Source of the DNA: Ornithodoros turicata
Lineage: Eukaryota; Arthropoda; Arachnida; Ixodida; Argasidae
NCBI RefSeq assembly: GCF_037126465.1
Contig: NC_088201.1
Span: 190,056,031-190,120,030, forward strand
DNA length: 64,000 bases
Reading direction: 5' to 3'
Below, piece by piece: positions 9,004-55,751 of the stretch. The notes beneath the pieces were generated by a model. That model did no database searches, had not been told where the DNA came from, and saw only the letters and a program-made list of their open reading frames with translations. The translations under genes were made by a program, and so were the position numbers. The stretch's first letter is position 1; each line of letters opens with the position of its first letter.

Positions 9004-9389
9004 GACTGTAGGGGTGGGCGTCGGGTCTCGTTGGGTTTTGTGTCCATGATGTGGGGTGAGGGCACAGTGCGTTCAGAGGGGTGGACGAGGTTCCGTTTGT
9101 CTGAGCTGAGTGGAGAGGGAACTCAGGCGGCGAAAAGGCTGATGATGCCGTCTTGGAGTGGGATGATAACCCAAGCAACATAAAGTGTAGGAATAATGTT
9201 GGTGCAACACTGGTTACGTTGGCCAATGTTGGCAATGTCGCTGCGACGTCCCATTCATATTGGAATACCAACGTTAATTCACAGCCATTGCCGCAATATT
9301 TATGCAACCCTTGATTACGAATATAAACTTTGGAAATGTTGCTGGAATAGGCATCTTATGATGTTATCCCAATGTGAAATTCCCAGCAC

Positions 9390-10340
9390 TGGAACAATGT
9401 CGGTGAAACGCTAGAAGTTATCCATAAAATCTGTAACATTGATCCGGCACTGATACAATGTTTTATTTCCAATGTGGGGCAGTCGCGACTGATCCAACGT
9501 TGTCAGAATATGGATACGACATAGCTGTACCGACGTGGCGTTCACAGCATTGGACCAATGTCGGACAAACATTGAGGGGTCTAGATCAAATTGGTAGCAT
9601 TCTTTCAGCATTGCTATGGTGCTTTTCTTCCAATGTGGAGCAGTCGCTGCCGGTCCAACGCTGTCAGAATATGGATACGAAATAGCTGTATAGACTTGGC
9701 ATTCACAGCGTTGGAACAATGTCGGGGAAACGTTGAGGGGTATACATCAAATTTATAACGTTGTTCCGGCATTGGTACGGTGCCGTTTTTCCAATGTGCG
9801 ACAGTCGCCACCGGTCTAACGATGTCAGAATCTGGATACGAAATAGCTGTATCCATGTGGCATTCACAGCATTGGAACAATGTCGTACAAACGTTGAGGG
9901 GTCTGCATCAATTTTGTAACATTCTTCCAGTATTGCTATGGTGCTTTTCTTCCAATGTGGGGCAGTCGTCGCCGTGTCAACGTTGTCAAAATATGAATAC
10001 GAAATAGCTGCACCAACGTGGCGTTCACAGCGTTGGACCAATCTCGGACAAACGTTGAGAGGTCTACATCAAATCTGTAACATTGTTCCAGCATTGCTAT
10101 GGTGTTTTCCTTGCAATGTGGGGCAGTCGCTACCGGTCCAACGTTGTCAAAATATGGGTACGAAATAACTGTAGCGACGTGGCGTTCACAGCATGGGAAC
10201 AATGTCGAAGAAACGTTGAGGGGTCTTCATCAAATTCGTAACGTTGTTCCGGCATTGGTACGGTGCCTTTTTTGCGATGTGGGGCAGTCATGACCGGTCG
10301 AACGCTGTCAGAATGTGGGTACGAAACAGCAGTACACATA
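9390..10340 (+). repeat. About six tandem units of ~161 bp (left arm)
   Basis: Units recur with the landmark ACAGCGTTGGAACAATGTCG near 9546, 9706, 9867, 10027 and 10189, a spacing close to 161 bp. Units are clearly diverged from each other. Small open frames of 75-112 codons recur in each unit but carry stops at the same places and are not genes. Confidence 0.75.
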
Positions 10341-12089: not shown

Positions 12090-12890
12090 TATGCTCAAGC
12101 AGACATGTCGTTGCATCGTCGGAATGCCACGGGGAAGACGTTGGTGTAACGCCAGAACAACGTTAGAACAGGCGTAGGAACAGCATAGGGGCAAATGTTG
12201 CTCAAATGTCTGAACACTGCTGGCCACATTATATTGGAACAATGTGTGGGCATGCATTGCACTAACGTTGGAACATTGTGGGATCAGATGTTGCTGTAAC
12301 GTCCGAGCACTGTCAGTGCAAACATGGGACCAACATATAGGGGCGGACGTTGCTCAAATATCTGAACACTGCTGGGCAGATAATATCGGAACAGTGTGTG
12401 GGCATACATCGTACTAACGTTGGGACATTGTTGGAGAAGATGTGATCTAACGTCGGAGCAGTGTCAGCGCAAACGTGGGACCAGCATATCGGGGCAGATG
12501 TTGCTCGAATGTCGGGATACTGCTGGGCAGATCATATCTGAACAGTGTTTGGGCATACATTACACTACCGTTGGAACACTGTTGGAACAGATGTTGCTGT
12601 AACGTCGGAGCAGTGTCAGCGCAAAATTGGGAGCATCATAGGGGCAGATGTTGCCCACATGTCGGAACAATGTTAGGGCAGATGTGGGACCAACGTTGGA
12701 ACCCTAAAATATTGTCGTAATTCCAGCGTCGACTCGCATACCTTGTAAGGATGTGGTTGTTACGTCAGAAGAAACATTGCTTACCAATGTAGATGTAACA
12801 TTAAAGGAGGCGACATTCCCACACTGTTCCAATGTTGGAATCCCTCGTTACTCCAACATTGAAGAGTGGAAAAGACAACGTCAGTCCAAC
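12090..12890 (+). repeat. Tandem units of ~150 bp (right arm)
   Basis: The landmark GTGTGGGCATACATYR...ACTAACGTTGG recurs near 12243, 12397 and 12546, about 150 bp apart. Units share the GTTGGAACA/GTCGGAGCA vocabulary of the left arm but are a different unit. Confidence 0.65.
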
Positions 12891-16690: not shown

Positions 16691-16800
16691 GGTGAAACTT
16701 GCCGTTGGTGTTGACAGGCAGACCTTCCCGTTTTCCCTCTACGCCACTCCACTCCACTCGCTTCGGCAAGTCTGTCGTTAACCTCTCTAGCGTCAACATC

Positions 16801-17186
16801 ATGTCAGGTCGTGGAAAAGGTGACAAAAAGGTGGAAAAGCCAAGGGAAAGAGCAAGACCCGATGCAGCAGGGCAGGGCTCCGGTTTCCCGTCGGTCGTAT
16901 TCATCGTCTCCTGCGCAAGGGCAACTACGCCAAGCGCGTGGGAGCAGGCGCCCCCGTTTACCTGGCCGCCGTGCTCGAATACCTCGCTGCTGAAGTGCTC
17001 GAGTTGGCGGGCAACGCTGCTCGCGACAACAAGAAGACGAGGATCATCCCCCGTTACCTCCAGCTGGCCATCCGCAACGACGAGGAGTTGAACAAGCTGC
17101 TGTCGGGCGTCACCATCGCGCAGAGTGGCGTGTTGCCCAACATCCAGGCCGTCCTCCTGCCCAAGAAGACGGAAAAGAAGGCCTAA
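16801..17186 (+). pseudogene. H2A: Histone H2A with one frameshift
   Basis: The core nucleosomal protein H2A. ATG 16801 begins MSGRGKG; the frame shifts near codon 13-14 (about 16840). It then runs unbroken through [18 protein letters not shown], the histone fold ([20 protein letters not shown]), the acidic-patch segment [11 protein letters not shown] and the tail [10 protein letters not shown] to TAA at 17186. Against the near-invariant animal sequence it has a Cys in the N-tail, Gln to Arg before FPVG, His to Tyr in the PRHLQ segment, and Gly to Ser in AQGGV. A good 3' stem-loop follows. It looks like a recently dead replication-dependent H2A, although a sequencing error at the shift cannot be excluded. 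Confidence 0.9.
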
Positions 17187-18008: not shown

Positions 18009-18419
<411 letters not shown>

Positions 18420-34752: not shown

Positions 34753-35107
34753 GTGAAAAAAAACGCGTAACTTAGCCACGAATTGGTCCCTTCAGGACGA
34801 GCCGAAACCACGGACGCCGATCAGCTGCTGCGCAATACGCGGAGGTTTACAAGCGGAGTACGTTCGGGCGCTGCGAGCGGACGGCGCCACCTTCCGGAAT
34901 CAGTGGTAAACGCGCCTTGGATGCATGCCTGTACTCACTTTTAATCCTTTTTCGGAAAAGCAGAATGCTAAAAACACACAAAAGACGGGTCATTTGAATC
35001 CTGAAACATGTCCCCGGTTAACCTCAGAAGCGGGTTGTTTTTATTTGCTTTTATTTATTCATTTGGATTTTTTGAAGCTGTAGCGACAAAATTCGTTTCT
35101 TTTTCTT
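34753..35107. other. Upstream of MULE copy; no gene
   Basis: Homology between the two MULE copies stops near 34752 (after ACAGGACAAGAAA), marking the probable 5' limit of that element. The remaining sequence to 35107 has no supported feature. Confidence 0.45.
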
Positions 35108-35437
35108 TTTTAAAAAAATACAGCGCTAGAGCGATATTTCAGTTCTCAGAGTTAAGAGATCTTGACGTCACCTTTCCAATGAAAGTTTCCGCATTCCGAT
35201 CTGTCTCATAGTTCGGCGACAAAACCAATGTGAAGTTCACATAGAAAACACAGGGGTTCCCACCTTCAGGGGTCCTTAAAAAAATTACAACGCTAGAGCA
35301 ATATTTCAGTTCCCAGAGTTAAGAGATCTTGACGTCACCTTTCCAATGAAAGTTTCCGCATTCCGATCTGTCTCATAGTTCGGCGACAAAACCTATGCGA
35401 AGTTCACATAGAAAACAGGGGGTGGTATGTCCTCTTA
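35108..35437 (+). repeat. Two tandem copies of a 168-bp unit
   Basis: The block from CGCTAGAGCGATATTTCAG to TTCACATAGAAAAC occurs at about 35123 and again at 35291, nearly identical. It lies immediately before the Penelope-like reading frame and may be part of that element's leader. Confidence 0.8.
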
Positions 35438-36302
35438 ACAAAGCACATCCGGCCATCAAGTTCACCCATTCTTATTCCCCTTTAACTGTTAACTTTCTCG
35501 ATGTCCAAGTAAAGTTAACCAACGGGGTCTTGTCCACAAACCTGTTCCGTAAACCTACAGACTCTCAACAGTATCTAGCATTTAACAGTTGTCACTCGCG
35601 TCATACTAAACTTGCCATCCCTTACAGCCAAGCACTTCGACACAGGCGTATCTGTTCCAGTGACGATGACTCATCGGTCGTTTTCCACCTAGCTTAGTTG
35701 ACGACGCTCTTGACAAAGCCCGCAAAGCAGATCGCAAAGCCCTGTTCGAAAACCACAAACGCGTGTTAGATAATGGTTCCGTAAACCTCATCTTAACATT
35801 TAGCAGCAATATTCCAAGCGTTAACAATATACTAAACCGTAACCATGGTATCCTTCTCCAATCGGAGCGCATGGGTAAAATTTTCCCTCAGCCACCGGGG
35901 GTAGCCTACAAGCGCGCGCGCAACCTGCACGATAATCTAGTTAGCTCTAAGGTTAGCAAAGCAGCGCATCCAGGAAACGGCTGTCACCCGTGCGATGGTC
36001 GAAGGTGTGAAATATGCAAATTAATACAAAGCACCCAAGTACTTAAAAGTACTAATTCCAATTTTTCCGTCAAAATTAATGGTGACTTCGACTGTAATTC
36101 ATCTAACGTCATTTATGTCATTCAGTGCGGCATGTGCCAAGCACAATACGTAGGTCAGACTAAAACATCATTTCGGATCAGGTTCAACAACCACCGATCT
36201 GACGTTACAAAAAAAGCCAAACCTCCCGGTCTCTCACCATTTCAAACAACCAGGTCATTCACTAAAGAATGTGTCACATTTTATTCTCCAGTCAAATTTT
36301 AG
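35425..36302 (+). pseudogene. Penelope-like RT C-terminus and GIY-YIG endonuclease
   Basis: First frame (to 35697): IKFTHSYSPLTVNFLDVQV, TNLFRKPTDSQQYLAFNS and IPYSQALRHRRICS, the end of a Penelope RT. A frame change near 35690 leads into ALDKARKADRKALFE. A further frame then has CHPCDGRRCEICK and the nuclease core VIYVIQCGMCQAQYVGQTK with FRIRFNNHRSD. GIY here reads VIYVI...YVG, normal for Penelope. The frame ends at TAG 36302, short of the usual C-terminal helix. Not translatable as one protein. Confidence 0.8.
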
Positions 36303-36679
36303 CTCAGATCGGTGCAGGGAACAACGCCAATCTTATCTCATTTACAAATTCCAATCAACCATTAACGAAGATCTGGGAGCACTTTCAACGGTAAGAAATT
36401 TGGCCGCCTAGATGAGCTACACTTTCCTCCTTTTCGTTTCCTTTCTGTTTTTCTTTCTTTCTTTTTTTCAGCAAAGTTTGAAGCAGTGCTCACCCTGTCC
36501 GGAATTTTCCCCAAATCGGACAGTGACCTACGGCGAATGACATCACCACCCGGACTTGACCTTCTGCAATATTCCCGAATCTGACTCAATGACAAACGCC
36601 TGTGGCGTACCCGTACAGATTATGACGTCATGTAGCAAACCTATTTAAGAAACGTGTAATCAGCTACGCATCTTTTGTC

Positions 36680-36713
36680 CTGACGAAGACAGTGCCACTG
36701 TCGAAACGTTGAC
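36680..36713 (+). ncRNA. Hammerhead ribozyme-like core of Penelope end
   Basis: CTGACGA, then hairpin GACAGT-GCC-ACTGTC, then GAAAC: the invariant catalytic core with a perfect six-pair stem II. Stem III would be very short (ACGT palindrome). A convincing stem I partner was not found, so activity is uncertain. Confidence 0.6.
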
Positions 36714-36834
36714 CCCTTGCCCATTTTACTTTTTAACGTCTCCCCATGTAATAAACTAGTGTTTGTAACTTCACTAAAATCTGTTCCGCGTCTTTTTTTT
36801 TTTTGAACTTCTGTAAAACATCGTGGCCGTTTGA

Positions 36835-36878
36835 CAATATATATATATATATACAATAATTTTTGACAATATTTGACA

Positions 36879-36904
<26 letters not shown>
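36835..36904. repeat. (TA)n tract before ribozyme array 1
   Basis: Two TA runs separated by an imperfect duplicate of TTGACAATAT. Each hammerhead array in this region is bordered by such a tract. Confidence 0.8.
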
Positions 36905-36905
<1 letters not shown>

Positions 36906-36909
<4 letters not shown>

Positions 36910-39900
36910 AGTCCCAAACGTCGCCACACCAGCATTGGACAGCTGTTTCGGCCTTATTGGGCCTTCATCAGCAATGCGTAGGTGGGCGACGTTTGAGCGA
37001 GTGGCGTCGGAAGGTCACGTGGAACGTGATGTCCTCCCGTCAGGGTGAGTGACTCACCTCTGAAAGCCCAGTGCGAAGCCAGTAAAATATTAAATGAAGA
37101 AAAATAGCATACGCTCTTTGGCTGCACGTTGAACATATGTTTATAAGTCCCAAACGTCGCCACACCAGCATTGGACAGCTGTTTCGGCCTTATTGGGCCT
37201 TCATCAGCAATGCGTAGGTGGGCGACGTTTGAGCGAGTGGCGTCGGAAGGTCACGTGGAACGTGATGTCCTCCCGTCAGGGTGAGTGACTCACCTCTGAA
37301 AGCCCAGTGCGAAGCCAGTAAAATATTAAATGAAGAAAAATAGCATACGCTCTTTGGCTGCACGTTGAACATATGTTTATAAGTCCCAAACGTCGCCACA
37401 CCAGCATTGGACAGCTGTTTCGGCCTTATTGGGCCTTCATCAGCAATGCGTAGGTGGGCGACGTTTGAGCGAGTGGCGTCGGAAGGTCACGTGGAACGTG
37501 ATGTCCTCCCGTCAGGGTGAGTGACTCACCTCTGAAAGCCCAGTGCGAAGCCAGTAAAATATTAAATGAAGAAAAATAGCATACGCTCTTTGGCTGCACG
37601 TTGAACATATGTTTATAAGTCCCAAACGTCGCCACACCAGCATTGGACAGCTGTTTCGGCCTTATTGGGCCTTCATCAGCAATGCGTAGGTGGGCGACGT
37701 TTGAGCGAGTGGCGTCGGAAGGTCACGTGGAACGTGATGTCCTCCCGTCAGGGTGAGTGACTCACCTCTGAAAGCCCAGTGCGAAGCCAGTAAAATATTA
37801 AATGAAGAAAAATAGCATACGCTCTTTGGCTGCACGTTGAACATATGTTTATAAGTCCCAAACGTCGCCACACCAGCATTGGACAGCTGTTTCGGCCTTA
37901 TTGGGCCTTCATCAGCAATGCGTAGGTGGGCGACGTTTGAGCGAGTGGCGTCGGAAGGTCACGTGGAACGTGATGTCCTCCCGTCAGGGTGAGTGACTCA
38001 CCTCTGAAAGCCCAGTGCGAAGCCAGTAAAATATTAAATGAAGAAAAATAGCATACGCTCTTTGGCTGCACGTTGAACATATGTTTATAAGTCCCAAACG
38101 TCGCCACACCAGCATTGGACAGCTGTTTCGGCCTTATTGGGCCTTCATCAGCAATGCGTAGGTGGGCGACGTTTGAGCGAGTGGCGTCGGAAGGTCACGT
38201 GGAACGTGATGTCCTCCCGTCAGGGTGAGTGACTCACCTCTGAAAGCCCAGTGCGAAGCCAGTAAAATATTAAATGAAGAAAAATAGCATACGCTCTTTG
38301 GCTGCACGTTGAACATATGTTTATAAGTCCCAAACGTCGCCACACCAGCATTGGACAGCTGTTTCGGCCTTATTGGGCCTTCATCAGCAATGCGTAGGTG
38401 GGCGACGTTTGAGCGAGTGGCGTCGGAAGGTCACGTGGAACGTGATGTCCTCCCGTCAGGGTGAGTGACTCACCTCTGAAAGCCCAGTGCGAAGCCAGTA
38501 AAATATTAAATGAAGAAAAATAGCATACGCTCTTTGGCTGCACGTTGAACATATGTTTATAAGTCCCAAACGTCGCCACACCAGCATTGGACAGCTGTTT
38601 CGGCCTTATTGGGCCTTCATCAGCAATGCGTAGGTGGGCGACGTTTGAGCGAGTGGCGTCGGAAGGTCACGTGGAACGTGATGTCCTCCCGTCAGGGTGA
38701 GTGACTCACCTCTGAAAGCCCAGTGCGAAGCCAGTAAAATATTAAATGAAGAAAAATAGCATACGCTCTTTGGCTGCACGTTGAACATATGTTTATAAGT
38801 CCCAAACGTCGCCACACCAGCATTGGACAGCTGTTTCGGCCTTATTGGGCCTTCATCAGCAATGCGTAGGTGGGCGACGTTTGAGCGAGTGGCGTCGGAA
38901 GGTCACGTGGAACGTGATGTCCTCCCGTCAGGGTGAGTGACTCACCTCTGAAAGCCCAGTGCGAAGCCAGTAAAATATTAAATGAAGAAAAATAGCATAC
39001 GCTCTTTGGCTGCACGTTGAACATATGTTTATAAGTCCCAAACGTCGCCACACCAGCATTGGACAGCTGTTTCGGCCTTATTGGGCCTTCATCAGCAATG
39101 CGTAGGTGGGCGACGTTTGAGCGAGTGGCGTCGGAAGGTCACGTGGAACGTGATGTCCTCCCGTCAGGGTGAGTGACTCACCTCTGAAAGCCCAGTGCGA
39201 AGCCAGTAAAATATTAAATGAAGAAAAATAGCATACGCTCTTTGGCTGCACGTTGAACATATGTTTATAAGTCCCAAACGTCGCCACACCAGCATTGGAC
39301 AGCTGTTTCGGCCTTATTGGGCCTTCATCAGCAATGCGTAGGTGGGCGACGTTTGAGCGAGTGGCGTCGGAAGGTCACGTGGAACGTGATGTCCTCCCGT
39401 CAGGGTGAGTGACTCACCTCTGAAAGCCCAGTGCGAAGCCAGTAAAATATTAAATGAAGAAAAATAGCATACGCTCTTTGGCTGCACGTTGAACATATGT
39501 TTATAAGTCCCAAACGTCGCCACACCAGCATTGGACAGCTGTTTCGGCCTTATTGGGCCTTCATCAGCAATGCGTAGGTGGGCGACGTTTGAGCGAGTGG
39601 CGTCGGAAGGTCACGTGGAACGTGATGTCCTCCCGTCAGGGTGAGTGACTCACCTCTGAAAGCCCAGTGCGAAGCCAGTAAAATATTAAATGAAGAAAAA
39701 TAGCATACGCTCTTTGGCTGCACGTTGAACATATGTTTATAAGTCCCAAACGTCGCCACACCAGCATTGGACAGCTGTTTCGGCCTTATTGGGCCTTCAT
39801 CAGCAATGCGTAGGTGGGCGACGTTTGAGCGAGTGGCGTCGGAAGGTCACGTGGAACGTGATGTCCTCCCGTCAGGGTGAGTGACTCACCTCTGAAAGCC

Positions 39901-40270
39901 CAGTGCGAAGCCAGTAAAATATTAAATGAAGAAAAATAGCATACGCTCTTTGGCTGCACGTTGAACATATGTTTATAAGTCCCAAACGTCGCCACACCAG
40001 CATTGGACAGCTGTTTCGGCCTTATTGGGCCTTCATCAGCAATGCGTAGGTGGGCGACGTTTGAGCGAGTGGCGTCGGAAGGTCACGTGGAACGTGATGT
40101 CCTCCCGTCAGGGTGAGTGACTCACCTCTGAAAGCCCAGTGCGAAGCCAGTAAAATATTAAATGAAGAAAAATAGCATACGCTCTTTGGCTGCACGTTGA
40201 ACATATGTTTATAAGTCCCAAACGTCGCCACACCAGCATTGGACAGCTGTTTCGGCCTTATTGGGCCTTC
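36906..40270 (-). repeat. Retrozyme-like array 1: 236-bp unit, 14 full copies
   Basis: Fourteen consecutive 236-bp units plus a cut fifteenth, as far as can be read identical to each other. Every unit contains a complete hammerhead ribozyme on the minus strand (stem I at 36932 plus multiples of 236, last full one at 40000-40045, cut one at 40236). Known of retrozymes: small non-coding retroelements whose tandem transcripts are cut by hammerheads into monomers and circularised. Unit size, tandem order and ribozyme in each unit fit. The uniformity implies very recent expansion or homogenisation, or assembly collapse and expansion of a satellite. Confidence 0.85.
36932..36977 (-). ncRNA. Hammerhead ribozyme, first of 14 in array 1
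   Basis: Minus strand, 5' to 3': stem I GCATTG, core CTGATGA, stem II GGCC-CAATAA-GGCC, GAAA, stem III palindrome CAGCTG, cleavage triplet GTC, stem I return CAATGC. Stem I pairs perfectly over six bases and every catalytic position is present. The very short, self-complementary stem III is typical of animal type-I hammerheads that cut best as dimers. The same motif recurs every 236 bp. Confidence 0.85.
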
Positions 40271-40340
40271 GACGTTTGGGACTTATAAACATATGTTCAA
40301 CGTGCAGCCAAAGAGCGTATGCTATTTTTCTTCATTTTAT
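40271..40340 (+). repeat. Inverted partial unit closing array 1
   Basis: From GACGTTTGGGAC to CTTCATTTTA this is the reverse complement of about 70 bp of the 236-bp unit, so the last unit can fold back. A (TA)n run follows to 40358. Confidence 0.85.
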
Positions 40341-40358
40341 ATATATATATATATATAT

Positions 40359-40875
40359 AGATACTCATGGAACGATGCGACAGCACCAGAGGACACGTGT
40401 TTCGCCGTGTTTGCGGCTCGTCGGCCCTGGGTAGCTGCGCATCGTTCGGGATTGGCAAACCAGGGGTCACTCAGCGAGCGATATACACCTGGGAGGGTGA
40501 CTGAGCACTCCTCAATGCCACAGTGCAAGCCAGTGAATTATAAAGAGGGGGGAAAAGCCATTAAAAAATAAGAAAAAATGACGCTAGATGTGTTTGATAT
40601 TCAAACTTACAGATTAAGATGGCTTCTATGGCTGCACGTAGAAAAACAGATACTCATGGAACGATGCGACAGCACCAGAGGACACGTGTTTCGCCGTGTT
40701 TGCGGCTCGTTGGCCCTGGGTAGCTGCGCATCGTTCGGGATTGGCAAACCAGGGGTCACTCAGCGAGCGATATACACCTGGGAGGGTGACTGAGCACTCC
40801 TCAATGCCACAGTGCAAGCCAGTGAATTATAAAGAGGGGGGAAAAGCCATTATTTTTTAATGGCTTTTCCCCCCT

Positions 40876-40881
<6 letters not shown>
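40359..40881 (-). repeat. Ribozyme array 2a: 289-bp unit, about 1.8 copies
   Basis: Units start AGATACTCATGG at 40359 and 40648. Hammerhead-like motifs lie at 40386-40430 and 40675-40719 (minus strand), but the core reads CCGACGA instead of CTGACGA. The array ends in an inverted repeat around 40850 (AATGGCTTTTCCCCCCTC mirrored), then a (TA)n run to 40923. Confidence 0.8.
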
Positions 40882-40923
<42 letters not shown>

Positions 40924-40925
<2 letters not shown>

Positions 40926-41093
40926 TGAAAAGTTGGGGTTGGATCGGACGGCTACGTAATTATAGCTGAAATAAATGGGAGACAGAAGACGAAAGTAGAG
41001 GAAGTAACAAAAAAGGGGTTTATTAAAACTTATCAATTATAAAAGTTAGGGAGGATATCTATGTTACGGCGGAATATATATATATATTTATAT
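40924..41093. other. Spacer between arrays 2a and 2b
   Basis: About 170 bp with no match to either array unit, ending in a short TA tract. No gene or repeat recognised. Confidence 0.5.
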
Positions 41094-41815
41094 AGATACT
41101 AATGGAACGATGCGGCAGCACCAGAGGACACGTGTTTCGCCGTGTTTGCGGCTCGTCAGCCCTGGGTAGCTGCGCATCGTTCCGAATTGGCAAACCAGCG
41201 GTCACTCAGCGAGCGATATACACCTGGGAGGGTGACTGAGCACTCCTCAATGCCACAGTGCAAGCCAGTGAATTATAATGCAGGAAAAAAGCTATTAAAG
41301 CAACAAATAAATGATACTAGACGTGTTTGTAATTCAAACTTACAGATTAACATGGCTTCTATGGCTGCACACAGAGAAACAGATACTAATGGAACGATGC
41401 GGCAGCACCAGAGGACACGTGTTTCGCCGTGTTTGCGGCTCGTCAGCCCTGGGTAGCTGCGCATCCTTCCGAATTGGCAAACCAGCGGTCACTCAGCGAG
41501 CGATATACACCTGGGAGGGTGACTGAGCACTCCTCAATGCCACAGTGCAAGCCAGTGAATTATAATGCAGGAAAAAAGCTATTAAAGGAACAAATAAATG
41601 ATACTAGACGTGTTTGTAATTCAAACTTGCAGATTAACATGGCTTCTATGGCTGCACACAGAGAAACAGATACTAATGGAACGATGCGGCAGCACCAGAG
41701 GACACGTGTTTCGCCGTGTTTGCGGCTCGTCAGCCCTGGGTAGCTGCACATCGTTCCGAATTGGGAAACCAGGGGTCACTCAGCGAGCGATATACACCTG
41801 GGAGTGTGTATCTGT
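41094..41815 (-). repeat. Ribozyme array 2b: 287-bp unit, about 2.5 copies
   Basis: Units begin AGATACTAATGG at 41094, 41381 and 41668. Each includes a minus-strand hammerhead with intact core CTGACGA: 41121-41165, 41408-41452 and 41695-41739. Related to array 2a at roughly 90 percent by eye, but a distinct lineage. Confidence 0.85.
41121..41165 (-). ncRNA. Hammerhead ribozyme, array 2b
   Basis: Minus strand: stem I CCAGGG, core CTGACGA, stem II GCCG-CAAACA-CGGC, GAAA, stem III palindrome CACGTG, cleavage TC, stem I return CTCTGG (six pairs including one G-T). All catalytic bases are present. Confidence 0.85.
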
Positions 41816-42008
41816 AAGTTTGAATTACAAACACGTCTAGTATCATTTATTTGTTCCTTTAATGACTTTTTTTCCTGCATTATAATTCACTGGCTTGCAC
41901 TGTGGCATTGAGGAGTGCTCAGTCACTCTCCCAGGTGTATATCGCTCGCTGAGTGACTCCTGGTTTGCCAATTCCGAACGATGCGCAGCTACCCAGGGCC
42001 GACGAGCC
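41816..42008 (+). repeat. Inverted partial unit closing array 2b
   Basis: Reverse complement of most of the 287-bp unit, ending inside the ribozyme at CCGACGAGCCGCAA. This copy has the CCGACGA core of array 2a. A short TA-rich stretch follows. Confidence 0.8.
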
Positions 42009-42044
42009 GCAATTTGTAACGTATATATAATATGTGTATATATG

Positions 42045-42300
42045 TTTACAATTTGATCGTGCACTCCCAGCCAAGGACAGCTGTTTCGCTCTACTTGTAG
42101 CTCGTCAGCCTGGCGTAGGGAAGTGACACGATCTTGGGTCGGCACAACATTGCGTCTCGGCGAGACGTCAATGTTCCACGGTGACGACGCCACCTGTGGA
42201 GGCCGCAGTGCCAGCCAGCAAGTACATATAAAAAATATCAAAAAAATATAAAAATAGCCGAAGCTCTGCAGCTGCTCAACGTGCAGCTACAGAGCTTCAT
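42045..42300 (-). repeat. Ribozyme unit 3 with terminal inverted repeat
   Basis: A single unit of a third family. It contains a minus-strand hammerhead and ends near 42250-42300 in an inverted repeat around GAAGCTCTG.AGCTGC. TA runs border it. Confidence 0.75.
42070..42114 (-). ncRNA. Hammerhead ribozyme, unit 3
   Basis: Minus strand: stem I GCCAGG, core CTGACGA, stem II GCTAC-AAGTA-GAGC (weaker), GAAA, stem III CAGCTG, cleavage GTC, stem I return CTTGGC (six pairs with one G-T). Core complete. Confidence 0.8.
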
Positions 42301-42359
42301 CCATTCTTTATATTATATATATATATATATTTACAATTTATATATATGTTTACAATTCA

Positions 42360-42835
42360 AGCGTGCCACAATGCACTGCGGCCTCCAGAGGTGTTGCTAA
42401 CACCCTGGAACATTGATGTCTTGCAGAGACACAGTGTTTGTGCCGACCCAAGAGCGTGTCACATCCCTACGCTGTGCCGATGAGAACCAAGAAGCTCGAA
42501 ACGGCCGTCCACAGCTGGGATTGTGGCACGCTTGAATTGTAAACATATGCCTCACGTGCAGCCATGAAGCATTTGCTCAATTCTATATTTGTATCTGTAC
42601 TTACTGGCTTTGCAATGCGGCCTCCAGAGGTGTTGCTAACACCCTGGAACATTGATGTCTTGCAGAGACACAGTGTTTGTGCCGACCCAAGAGCGTGTCA
42701 CATCCCTACGCTGTGCCGATGAGAGCCAAGAAGCTCGAAACGGCCGTCCACAGCTGGGATTGTGGCACGCTTGAATTGTAACCATATGCCTGACGTGCAG
42801 CCATGGAGCATTTGCTCAATTTTATATTTGTATAT
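42360..42835 (+). repeat. Ribozyme array 4: 239-bp unit, two copies
   Basis: Two nearly identical units (block GCCTCCAGAGGTGTTGCTAA near 42380 and 42620). The hammerhead is on the plus strand, opposite to arrays 1-3. Confidence 0.8.
42471..42515 (+). ncRNA. Hammerhead-like motif, array 4 (core variant)
   Basis: Stem I GCTGTG, core CCGATGA (normally CTGATGA), stem II GAG...CTC, GAAA, stem III palindrome CGGCCG, cleavage GTC, stem I return CACAGC with six perfect pairs. A second copy is at 42710-42754. The U-to-C change in the core may abolish or slow cleavage. Confidence 0.75.
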
Positions 42836-42837
42836 TT

Positions 42838-42838
42838 G

Positions 42839-42879
<41 letters not shown>
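42838..42879. repeat. (TA)n(TG)n tract
   Basis: Eleven or so TA units passing into GT units, between arrays 4 and 5. Confidence 0.85.
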
Positions 42880-42947
42880 AAAGAGAAAACAGCCGAAGCT
42901 CTATGACTGCACGTTGAGCACATGTTTATAAGTTAACTCTGCACTCC

Positions 42948-42996
42948 CAGCAGAAGAGACCTGTTTCGTTCTACATGGAACTCGTCAGCCCGGCGC
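42948..42996 (-). ncRNA. Degenerate hammerhead, unit 5
   Basis: Minus strand CTGACGA, stem II GTTC-CATGTA-GAAC, GAAA, then CAGGTC in place of the palindromic stem III. Stem I (CCGGG with TTCTG) is poor. The flank ACGTTGAGCACATGTTTATAAG resembles array 1. Probably a decayed copy of a fifth family. Confidence 0.6.
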
Positions 42997-43295
42997 AGGA
43001 AAGTCCCTGTACGATCAATCAACTTATCAACATATACATATCATTTTATTTTCTACACATTGTACCGCAACCAGGGACAAAAGGCTCAAGCAAGCTTGAC
43101 GAAGGCCCCTAGTACCTGCAGTACGGACCAGCGTAACCCACATCTCCACTTTCCATCTTCATAATCAAAGACATAACAGCATTTTCACTCACCATATAAA
43201 CTTGTTTCAATTTATTCTCTGGTTCTCTCGCAACATATCTCTCATATCATACCTGCACTATAGAGATCAACCAAGCAACATTTTAAAATTCTTGT

Positions 43296-52351: not shown

Positions 52352-55300
52352 TTAGTTATCTTTACGAGTCTTCCGTTTGTTTCTGGATGAATCGCCCTGA
52401 TTGGAAGTTGTTTTGGCGGCATCACAGAGCGAGGCAACCTGATGGTCACTCTCCTTGTTATCTCTGAGCTGCAGCCCACGGGACTGACGAGGGCCAACCA
52501 ATTCCGGTAGAAGGCTATGCGTGTAGAACAGTTGAAGGTGGCCAATCATTTTGCTCCAGAACCCATCATTTCTCTCGATCTTCTGGACAAAAATTTCCTC
52601 ACCTGAATATACCACAAAAAGACAAAACTGACGTCGAGTGATGTGGAGCTGTCCCTGCACCTGATAGTGGTAGTCATGGTTTTCCTTCAACGAAATATTA
52701 CCAGAGTTATCAATAGTGCAAAAGGTGATTTTTTTTTGCCCGCACTCCCTCCACAGGGGTAAGGGACCGAGCCGAATAAGGGCACTTCACTTCCACGACA
52801 GTGTCGTCACCGACAACCCCATCAGGTGTTGCAGCAAGGTATGCAAACTCCCAATCAACAACAAGGCCGCATGGTGAAACAGTCACCCCTAACTCATCCT
52901 GCAGCTTAGCAATTGCAGTGGGCTCAGTATCGCGACCATATCGGAGAGCCTCAGTGTCAAAACGACCATACAGCAAGTAACGAACAGTACTTGCACTGCT
53001 CGTTGCATCTCGTATCTTGCATACCTTGCCAAAATTAGAAGCGGTGAGTCGCTTTCGCCTCCTCCTGCATCTACAAAGTTCTCCCTTCTTGACCTCGAGT
53101 ATCAGCCTCGAGCTGCCATGCATCTGGTTGGGAGAGCACAAGGGAATCCGCCGCAGCAGCTTCAACATAGTCATCGTGGTTCATGTCTGGAGCATCAACT
53201 GTGGAACCATAGTGGTTGTCGCTTGAAGCACGCTTGCAAGGCGCACCTTCAAGTGAACGCTTACAGCGAGCAGCCCCAGAACGCCGATGCCTCATGCAAG
53301 CAGCATGAACAGCTGCTTTACGCTTCAGCATAATTTTTGCATACTTCCCAGGGCTGGTGTTGTACACTGCCTTATGTACAGCACGATGGTACTGCTTAGA
53401 GTTGAAAGACACGACAGCCCCTGAAGCCCACATTCCGAATGATCCCCTCTGGGAAAAGTTTATTCTTTTTCCGCCAGAAAATTTTGCAACGAGAGAATTG
53501 AAATGTTCTGCAGCATTATTGTTAACGTCAAGGATCAAGCTGCTACCATTGTTTGCCAAACGACTCATCGCTACAAGGCTTTCATTGAAAAGGCCGCATT
53601 TCCTGAGCTCTGGGACGTGATGGACTTCCCCTTCTTTTGGACCACTGCAAAAGTAACCCGCACATTTTGCGTGGTCGCCGAACACATGGAGTGGCCCATT
53701 AGGGATATCAGCCACCAGGTTCCGAATCTGATCTTGTTTGCTGAACTCAGCCTGCTCTTTGCGATAGTGAATAGCCCTAGCAACTCCAACTCTTAGTCGA
53801 ACAGCATTATCCAGAAGTAGCTTCTTCAGCGATGGGGGAATGGGGGTTGTTCTCTTTGCCAAAGCGATATCTCGAAGACGACTTACACAGTTCCGAAGAA
53901 GGTGGTTGCGACATTCTATCTTCTGAACTATATGATGCTGGTACGGTGCAGCTTCACGAATTGACTTGTATGTGCTCGAATCACCGTCAGCGATCAACTC
54001 CAAGTACTTAACACCGTGCAACTCAATGCTGCACCTGAAGCCTTCAACGACGATATCCTTCTCCATACTGGTAGAGCTGCTGTCCCAGTTCTTGCAGCAC
54101 AGATGATTTTCTGGGCTCGACCCTGCCTTGCAACTTGCGCACAGTGTACAAAATTTGTTCCGGACGCCTAGGAACAGTACTTTCTTTGTGCGGTACCCAA
54201 CAATTACAGCCTGCAAAAACGAAAAAATATCAGGATTGTATTCCACAAAACTCTACCCGCAATGACAATGTTTCCAGGAATTATGCATCTGTATGCGTAT
54301 CGTAAAAACTCATGCCACAGGATGTATACCACTCTAGTAAGTGTGGTGGTGGTGGTGGTGGTGATAGGGCTGGCCGTTGTCGGCCTCACGTATGTGGGCA
54401 ACGTCACGACTGACGCCCTGGGGGAATGTGCGTCCTGGGCCGACTTCTAAGGGAACTGTGCCGACATATGTCTGAAAGCGTCTGAGGTAAGTGTGTTTAC
54501 CAAAAGACAGCAGTGCCACTAATAGCACCAGAGGGGTCAACTTTTTCCTCCAAATAAATGCTCATAGTGTTCTTTCCGCAAATGGTGGGCACAGAGTTCC
54601 TGTATATCCCGTCCGCCAAGCGGTGTGCAAGATAAATCCTTCTTTTTCGGGCACCTTTATTTAGTGTAGATAACAATATTTACTTACCAAGCCAGAAAGA
54701 GCGTCGTACTTGTTCTTGTATGAACGTTTGCACCAAGCACCATCGGCAACGACCGTAATTATAGGAAAACCGTCAGCATCGACGTCCCCAGCCTCCCTAG
54801 CTAACCAAGCTTCCTCAATGCCTGCTTTTCTTGTTTCTTCCAACGCTGTTTTGTCGATTCCTTTAGCAACAATATCCTGATACTTACTGTACGTGCTACT
54901 AGCCATGCCGGGTATGTCCAGAGCACCTAGGAGCTCGCGAAGGAGTGAGAAACCAGAACCTATAGACACGATACCGTTCACTGCTGAGGAATTGACGTCC
55001 ATGCGTTGTTGAACAAGTTGATCAACTGGTGCCTCCGTTGTGACTACATCTTTCCTCAGACGCATCCTGCATTTCAAACTGAAAGAGCTACACAGACCTC
55101 GCCGATGTTCTGATACAATTTCCATGTCAGCCAGGCCGCAACCAAACGGACTATGTACCGACAAACTTTGCAAAGACGAGAAGAAGTGATCAATCTCCAC
55201 AATACGCCGACCATTCACACTGCTTGTGCGCTGACTCTGTGTCTGGTGAACATCGCCGGTATCGAAAGATGGAGATCGACTCATGGGTGTAACAGCGGCA

Positions 55301-55686
55301 GTGGTTGGAACGGGAGTTGCTCTGGAACCGGCAAGCTCGTCACAACCTGAACTGCAGGGGACTACATTATCTACCCCAGCTGGATCAGCAAATGACGAAT
55401 TTGAAGGACAAATTTCGCTTGTGCTCGAAGCGAAACACACATTCCGGCCGGCATCACTTACAGTTTGAGGAACAACACTACTACCAAAGGTTGAGCCTAC
55501 AAGGGTATCTGCGCGATGTGGAGTCGTCGAAGTGCAACGATCACTCAGAACAGCACGGCTGGAGCATCCTGCATTACCAAAATCTCTCAAATCCGCAGGT
55601 TCCGTCACATGCCTGCCTCTACCACGTAAATTCGCATAGTCCTTCTTCTTACGTTTCCGTTGTCCGTAGACGTGACTTCGAGCCAT
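52352..55686 (-). pseudogene. Mutator-like transposase joined to YqaJ nuclease (G2)
   Basis: Exon 1 55686-54688: basic start, Ser-rich region, SIGSGFSLLRELLGALDIPG, VVADGAWCKRSYKNKYD. Intron 54687-54211 (GTAAGT...TTTGCAG). Exon 2 from 54210: AVIVGYRTKKVLFLGV, CTLCASCK...HLCC, LIADGDSSTYKS, then HKAVYNTSPGKYAKIML. It runs on into KRLTASNFGKVCK, RYGRDTEPTAIAKL, ATPDGVVGDDTVVEVKCPYS and YHYQVQGQLHITRRQFCLFVV, a YqaJ nuclease with its E...D...ExK metal site and QxQ motif, ending at 52352. Two one-base shifts (near 53085, and in an A-run near 52730) break it; both could be base-call errors. Transposase plus exonuclease in one gene suggests coupled cutting and end processing. Confidence 0.75.
54345..54486 (-). 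mobile_element. 142-bp CAC-tailed retroelement in MULE intron
   Basis: Flanked by GTAAGTGT at 54337-54344 and 54487-54494, an 8-bp target duplication. The intron of the other MULE copy (33480) has a single uninterrupted GTAAGTGT, so it is a true empty site. On the minus strand the insert ends in (CAC)n. It matches 59931-60056 in its core (TAGAAGTCGGCCCAGGACGC). It is a 5'-truncated non-LTR or SINE insertion. Confidence 0.85.
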
Positions 55687-55751
55687 AATGGGTAGATACT
55701 ATGAACACGCAGAAAACACACAAGGACAGAGAGCAAATGAACAGGACAAGA

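Follow-up and report, generated by a model that had tools for sequence, protein, structure and literature searches.

A tandem hammerhead array in Ornithodoros turicata has paired start sites and converging arms that point to copying of a retrozyme RNA by Penelope-like element machinery

The window analyzed here is a 64,000-nt stretch of the Ornithodoros turicata genome (assembly GCF_037126465.1, NC_088201.1:190,056,031-190,120,030, forward strand), and all coordinates refer to this window unless stated otherwise. It contains a tandem array of hammerhead ribozymes, termed array A, which sits in a (TA)n tract between a remnant of a Penelope-like element (PLE) and further hammerhead arrays. In the following, nucleotides (nt) of the retrozyme RNA are numbered from the ribozyme cleavage site. 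The features of array A and its borders are listed below, where RT denotes reverse transcriptase.

36838-36903, no strand: AT-rich/(TA)n target tract bordering array A on its left side (from the sequence; uninterrupted in a duplicate locus, L067)
36904-40270, minus strand for the RNA and plus strand for the first cDNA arm: array A, consisting of 14.3 identical retrozyme units of 236 bp (match at a lag of 236; Tandem Repeats Finder period 236)
36932-36977, minus strand: first of 14 type I hammerheads (pattern scan; 70.1 bits each with model R1)
37087-37134, minus strand: example in one unit of the 'tail' between the two putative RT start sites, RNA nt 40-87 (starts from 37 insertions); site 1 (nt 39) is 37135 and site 2 (nt 87) is 37087
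40000-40045, minus strand: last complete hammerhead, the motif repeating every 236 bp
40242-40268, minus strand: incomplete 15th hammerhead at the stop of the first cDNA arm (partial match to model R1)
40270-40342, plus strand: inverted second arm of array A, corresponding to RNA nt 15-87 (73 nt, 99% inverted repeat, BLAST)
40343-40358, no strand: (TA)n separating array A from array B

A single uninterrupted match at a lag of 236 spans 36904-40270 and includes 14 complete hammerhead cores at a spacing of exactly 236 bp; the 14 units do not differ from each other at any position. This confirms a preliminary description, which had reported fourteen identical 236-bp units over 3.3 kb; the copy number rests on the assembly and not on reads. 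The parts of the ribozyme that it had named on the minus strand were likewise all found, namely stem I GCATTG/CAATGC, to which more pairs are added beyond an internal loop, CTGATGA, stem II GGCC/GGCC with a 6-nt loop, GAAA, the palindromic stem III CAGCTG and GTC, 3' of which cleavage is predicted. It had overlooked an extra A that lies unpaired between CTGATGA and stem II, the inverted arm reaching to 40342, the neighboring hammerhead arrays at 40359-42833 and the link to PLEs. Apart from the extra A the core is intact; an additional A at the equivalent place is known from a viroid hammerhead. The open stem is stem I, which makes the ribozyme type I.

The search with Infernal that had been proposed as a check gave a divided answer. 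With the Rfam model RF00163 (Hammerhead_1) the 236-bp units reached 28.2 bits (E = 0.0015 for 10 kb), under the gathering score of 34, perhaps due to the extra A before stem II. Model R1, built from the seven other hammerheads of the window with the 236-bp family left out, detected all 14 units at 70.1 bits each (E = 8e-18, rough calibration). Across eight window copies, standard pairs fill 94.5% of the pair cells, and double changes are seen at 14 of 21 pairs; in control structures slid by 1-3 columns, the paired cells drop to 34-45%. This covariation supports the hammerhead fold. A loose hammerhead pattern matched 20 times in the window compared with a mean of 0.005 in 200 first-order random sequences of equal length, and a strict pattern matched 17 times compared with 0 in the 200. 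The predicted fold of a 236-nt circle has a minimum free energy of -84.4 (z = -5.45 relative to 100 dinucleotide shuffles).

Metazoan non-LTR (long terminal repeat) retrozymes are described as type I hammerheads in tandem repeats that lack a long reading frame (Cervera and de la Pena 2020, PMC7229834). Array A shares with them the unit size, the occurrence of a type I hammerhead in 150-450-bp tandem repeats, a two-pair stem III with a palindromic tetraloop, and coexistence with PLEs; no stop-to-stop frame of at least 130 aa was found in the array. Also described for the group are a canonical core with a tertiary contact between loops 1 and 2, the absence of a primer-binding site and a polypurine tract, and self-cleavage with abundant circular RNA; in the 236-bp units, stem I has an internal loop and loop II has 6 nt. 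Target duplications longer than 4 bp, another trait of the group, were seen at two insertions of the 236-bp family, with repeats at both ends of 13 bp (L049) and up to 14 bp (L026), and no other adjacent candidate appeared in the joint listing, in which pure A/T repeats could not be scored. The GC content is given as <50% in the text and <45% in the legend of Fig. 1C of PMC7229834; it is 0.50 in the 236-bp unit and 0.48-0.50 across the four family units considered below. The differences are the extra A in the 236-bp family and the presence of sister families with C at core position 4 (U4C). A putative type I retrozyme has been reported in the tick Argas monolakensis (PMC4918200). The design of an animal retrozyme, as proposed in the preliminary description, is thus supported by the period, the type I hammerhead with a short palindromic stem III, the tandem layout and the lack of a long frame. 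Array A is a further member of the metazoan non-LTR retrozymes, and its insertion signature is the new part. From its copies elsewhere in the genome, the 236-bp element is seen to be mobile and was probably copied from an RNA circle.

To describe this signature, the 1.07-Gb genome was searched with the 236-bp unit, which gave 285 matches (408 candidates, 40 scored). Among the matches listed, the 38 loci of the best matches were fetched, so that the sample favors young copies, and each insertion piece was mapped to the RNA. Two loci (L045, L046), judged by their flanks to be duplicates of L044 and L047, were dropped before counting, two pieces each of L047 and L049 were merged as insertions split by later ones, and the right end of L052 was left unscored, resulting in 37 insertions including that of the window. 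The 54 cDNA-start ends that adjoin flanking DNA fall into two groups: 26 lie at nt 33-45 (18 exactly at nt 39) and 24 at nt 76-91 (14 exactly at nt 87), with 4 elsewhere. The 19 far ends are scattered, with 0 in the first window of positions and 4 in the second. The two start windows make up 12.3% of the unit, which corresponds to a nominal chance of 6e-41 for windows drawn after seeing the data. When both ends of an insertion are on-site, 14 of 15 insertions use one site per end (p = 0.0016 with shuffled partners). Two-arm insertions are convergent in 18 cases and divergent in one (L056), and the other scored insertions have a single orientation.

The flanks at these insertions are rich in A and T. 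The 12-nt flank alternates strongly between A and T at 25 of the 50 on-site start ends, and AT-rich flanks are also found at insertions of the 239-bp and 287-bp families and of the PLE. In (TA)-like flanks the on-site start is nt 39 (15/15) or nt 87 (9/10), whereas the median start in other flanks is nt 36 (11 ends) or nt 86.5 (14 ends). Since starts are tighter in (TA)-like flanks, part of their sharpness can be attributed to matching between (TA) and AUAU in the RNA, and the choice of site is also present without such matching.

The genome also offers a view of the site without array A. An inverted duplicate of window positions 34805-43295 lies 21 Mb away on the same contig (L067, G000 C1:169056300-169061200; 96-98% identity). 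It retains the PLE remnant (97.7% over 34805-36904) and the neighboring insertions C, D, E' and G, and a single uninterrupted (TA)n takes the place of arrays A and B. Given the plain (TA)n at the site in the duplicate, insertion of A and B into the tract is most simply placed after the duplication. Older retrozyme copies, 67-84% identical, lie near young ones at L022, L028, L035 and L056, suggesting repeated use of the same spots.

The joints between converging arms vary from a 24-nt overlap to a 48-nt gap. In two insertions (L019, L055) both arms meet at an equal RNA position and overlap by 15 and 24 nt. Such joints would be expected if a PLE-encoded RT had made the inverted arm by snapping back on its own cDNA or by self-priming, with no second DNA end involved, and a role of self-priming has been suggested for inverted repeats of PLEs that have palindromic junctions (PMC3846280). 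However, snap-back would fix the inner joint, and the 19 listed inner joints scatter; moreover, the outer ends lie on flanking DNA at different preferred sites, also in L019 and L055. We therefore consider this explanation unlikely. The recurrence of offset ends at many unlinked loci with distinct flanks, and in the PLE as well, also bears on whether array length or inverted arms could be assembly artefacts. Identical repeats that exceed the read length can be mis-sized, and the unit number alone may be wrong, yet an artefact as the source of the whole pattern appears extremely improbable in view of this recurrence.

Nucleotide variants were used to compare units within and between arms. In 39 stretches, 193 of 224 hammerhead cores are exact and the catalytic residues are preserved in 215, a count that cores with more than 5 edits would escape. 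Several arrays have private variants throughout: all seven cores of L031 share one change in the cleavage triplet (GTA), nine of ten in L023 share one stem II change, and three of four in L041 share a change in the conserved core. These array-wide variants fit the copying of one circle many times, although homogenization could have produced them as well. A variant absent from the other analyzed insertions is fixed in both arms of L049, L052, L053 and L054, which suits copying of both arms from the same RNA species.

Homogenization is central to a satellite explanation, by which a single unit inserted and grew by unequal crossing-over or gene conversion, with the hammerhead as a passenger. This would account for the 0 differences in 14 units and for the array-wide variants. 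It does not explain why the array is entirely missing from the duplicate site or why the catalytic residues are kept in 215 of the 224 family cores, and crossing-over predicts neither two fixed starts in dispersed insertions of different length nor inverted arms. We regard it as a highly doubtful account of the data.

Array A is followed by further retrozyme insertions in the window.

40359-40882, minus strand: array B, 1.7 units of the 289-bp family, core U4C, starts at nt 33 and 142; inverted arm at 40850-40882
41094-42012, minus strand: array C, 2.5 units of the 287-bp family with canonical cores (Rfam Hammerhead_1, 40.6 bits for each of three); inverted arm at 41810-42012
42040-42318, minus strand: insertion D, about one unit, inverted arm at about 42273-42318 (BLAST, judged by eye)
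42344-42833, plus strand: insertion E', 1.9 units of the 239-bp family, core U4C; inverted arm at 42344-42372
42881-43035, minus strand: insertion G, decayed retrozyme fragment with a hammerhead at 42955-42991

An inverted piece at the RNA 5' side is carried by each of A, B, C, D and E', and insertion G has a possible short inverted end known solely from a 13/14 match. One start of array C is at nt 33 and the other is off-site, at about nt 255-268. Insertion D (hammerhead 42070-42114) starts near nt 39 and 87 in the numbering of the 236-bp unit, and E' at about nt 85 and 39. The four family units are 48-91% identical to each other in pairs, and GTGCAGCC and ACTGGCTT are common to all four outside the hammerhead.

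For ten sampled insertions of the 239-bp family, all 13 scored start ends fell in the windows preset on the 236-bp family (nt 39 or 85-90), and all five two-ended insertions use one of each site; two masked ends and one unreached end were left unscored. In the 287-bp family, for which the windows were set around those starts that the study window shows, the two fetched insertions start at nt 140/33 and 33/140, again one of each site. Besides these two, nine chosen flanks were scanned, eight of which had copies. When copies met in flanks are included, the ranges nt 27-39 and 133-147 account for 12 of the 16 start ends.

The 239-bp family (window 42461-42764; L077-L095) is an expanded retrozyme family with a U4C core. 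Core position 4 is C in 43/43 matches of this family and in 26/30 matches of the 287/289-bp families at the fetched loci. As U4C has been reported to reduce activity in vitro while still supporting the infectivity of a viroid (PMC3088659), the U4C families may cut slowly or depend on dimers. Short stutter-like duplications occur at cDNA starts, e.g., ATACAAAT twice, at window positions 42800-42845, 42320-42357 and 36838-36890 and at about 3680 in L043; they recall re-priming by a telomerase-like RT. A 19-mer pattern used to seek retrozyme relatives had 10 matches in viral contigs, which we take as chance.

To the left of array A, the window contains the PLE remnant mentioned above.

35430-36837, plus strand: 5'-truncated PLE remnant, RT end and GIY-YIG endonuclease with broken frames; 3' end in (TA)n
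36677-36713, plus strand: minimal hammerhead of the PLE (pattern scan; motif also in 8/8 fetched PLE ends)

The frame of the remnant extends stop-to-stop from 35670 to 36302. The frame itself had no Pfam match at 0.001; its closest homologues (P0001, P0002) carry PF01541, and intact relatives also have RVT_1. A protein search with the endonuclease frame found three relatives, all unnamed. Among the best 150 of 7,334 candidates for the endonuclease query in the genome, 12 lie in a 927-aa open frame, and one such frame (745 aa seen) has RT and GIY-YIG domains, the latter just under the curated cut-off. Within the same best 150, neighbors up to 8 kb apart are opposite with their 3' ends outward in 26 cases, opposite otherwise in 0 and in tandem in 6. 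For four head-to-head pairs, both outer flanks but not the middles were fetched. All four have one short end (...GAACTTCT) and one that is longer by about 34-41 nt (tailed). Seven of the eight ends adjoin (TA)n, and the eighth (L070) adjoins a TATA-rich CCCTATA stretch. A probe over the PLE tail and the start of the open reading frame (ORF) gave 511 candidates, and 20 of the best 40 stop at probe positions 49-50, no more than a few nt from the tail end. Sites follow the order cut, site 1, tail, site 2 in both elements, at +39/+87 in the retrozyme and about +98/+139 (hand count) in the PLE. As read from these ends, AT-rich targets, convergence and the one-tailed rule are common to the retrozymes and the PLE.

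At L068, a small tailed PLE piece adjoins the short end of a pair within one (TA)n region. A 237-aa PLE frame with a GDSL-like lipase/acylhydrolase domain (PF13472) lies right after the tail at L076:749-1462 and shows distant sequence similarity to an ORF1 protein of solved structure (4c1b, E = 0.00026).

The PLE ends also bear on mobilization by long interspersed nuclear elements (LINEs), that is, target-primed reverse transcription from one end, in which occasional twin priming would give the inverted arms. Reading frames of LINEs are present in the window, and end repeats of 13 and 14 bp were seen in two insertions, a length also known with LINEs. Furthermore, LINEs are listed among the possible helpers of retrozymes (Cervera and de la Pena 2020, PMC7229834). 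However, arms that overlap in sequence would not be expected from twin priming on a linear template, and preferred internal starts at both DNA ends, one site for each end and AT-rich targets are the pattern of PLEs in the same genome. A LINE as the helper is thus very unlikely in our view.

Taken together, our results suggest, with a probability of roughly 84%, that array A is a young type I non-LTR metazoan retrozyme and that PLE machinery copies its circular RNA from both cut ends. A tandem transcript would cleave itself into 236-nt monomers, which a host ligase would close into a circle. The GIY-YIG endonuclease and telomerase-like RT of a PLE, the presumed enzyme, would cut AT-rich DNA, and both freed 3' ends would prime cDNA on the retrozyme RNA, one at site 1 (nt about 36-39) and the second at site 2 (about 82-87). 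These two sites are separated by some 48 nt, and both lie 3' of the hammerhead cut. The RT may then circle the template several times, producing identical tandem units, and the two converging cDNAs would be joined at variable points. With one start site per DNA end, a full insertion would be a pair of converging rolling-circle cDNAs. At the level of sequence, this reading draws on the fold and its covariation, the (TA)n insertion, the two start sites, the convergent arms, the use of one site per end, the array-wide private variants and a PLE with the same signature. More broadly, we find it fairly probable that animal retrozymes are RNA-circle parasites of PLEs, with one RNA, two start sites and one site per cut end.

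Several observations weigh against this reading. Cleavage, circularity, and binding and action of the PLE protein are what we infer from the sequences. The start-site windows were set after seeing the 236-bp family, and where a (TA)n target matches AUAU in the RNA, the start can appear displaced by a few nt. Both ends of L042 lie at site 2, L056 is divergent, and L022, L032, L035 and L050 have an off-site end, as does an arm of array C. In the 287-bp family, 4 of the 16 ends are off-site: L019 (nt 26), L022 (nt 16), L043 (nt 53) and L070 (nt 126), the last of which belongs by eye to the 289-bp family, where its start corresponds to nt 142. With regard to variants, 10 of the other 15 two-arm sets share none and 5 share only a common one, and in 12 of 19 two-arm insertions at least one arm, mostly a short one, has a variant that the other lacks, a difference that may have arisen by later mutation or from a second template. 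Both ends of a PLE pair were assigned to one insertion on the basis of their spacing. Two candidate likenesses of the tails were dropped: a sequence shared by PLE and retrozyme tails, for which local alignments with 1782, 855 and 1545 of 2000 shuffled PLE tails were as good, and a conserved tail hairpin (z = 0.34, 1.01, 0.43 and -0.47 relative to shuffles).

Comparable start sites have been described for the Anolis PLE PAc, in which both strands are cut and extended and the RT starts at two adjacent internal sites that bound a tail, with a hammerhead near the start sites as here (PMC11167929); in the available text of that source, no strand difference is given for the start sites and the one-site-per-end rule is not stated. 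Penelope of Adineta vaga has inverted pseudo-LTRs (pLTRs) with a 31-bp tail on one of them (PMC3846280). Inverted termini, a short tail at one end only, AT-rich targets and tandem copies are thus common to PLEs, as far as described in these sources, and the retrozymes studied here. In contrast to PLEs, the retrozyme is apparently non-coding, and the tail sequence is not recognizably common to both; its arms consist of many short units, as the template is probably a 236-nt circle. The inverted second arm and the paired start sites are not described for metazoan retrozymes in the available text of PMC7229834 and PMC4918200.

The insertion ends provide genomic evidence for PLEs as the machinery that spreads animal retrozymes. 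PLEs have been proposed as a strong helper candidate on the basis of common hammerheads, tandem layout and co-occurrence (PMC7229834). The ends predict RT start positions and a one-site-per-end rule, which are testable with purified PLE protein. If this is true, the rule would explain the 'one-tailed' inverted ends of PLEs, and the common layout of cut, site 1, tail and site 2 may explain why the hammerhead is retained in both elements. Among the open-access texts searched, which did not include subscription papers or the supplement of PMC7229834, we found no report of this insertion signature for retrozymes.

Two other groups of hammerhead repeats were compared with array A. Plant LTR retrozymes also consist of hammerhead-bounded repeats thought to move via RNA circles, but are described as having mostly type III hammerheads, LTRs, a primer-binding site, a polypurine tract and 4-bp target duplications (PMC4918200); with its type I hammerhead, array A was not assigned to them. 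The satellite hammerhead repeats of newts and salamanders are likewise tandem with a short palindromic stem III, and RNA circles have been reported from axolotl (PMC7229834). They differ in having 330-350-bp units, and their insertion ends are not described in the available text of this source.

Elsewhere in the window, tandem repeats of 161, 152 and 167 bp are found at 9380-10335, 12173-12683 and 35110-35417, without a match in the hammerhead pattern scan. A histone H3-like frame with substitutions (Pfam Histone; 18009-18419, minus strand) and a shifted H2A-like frame, recognized by eye (about 16696-17091, plus strand), both look pseudogenic. A Mutator-like transposase (PF20700) is matched at 54661-55698 on the minus strand, and the segment 33654-34697 on the same strand is alike by eye.

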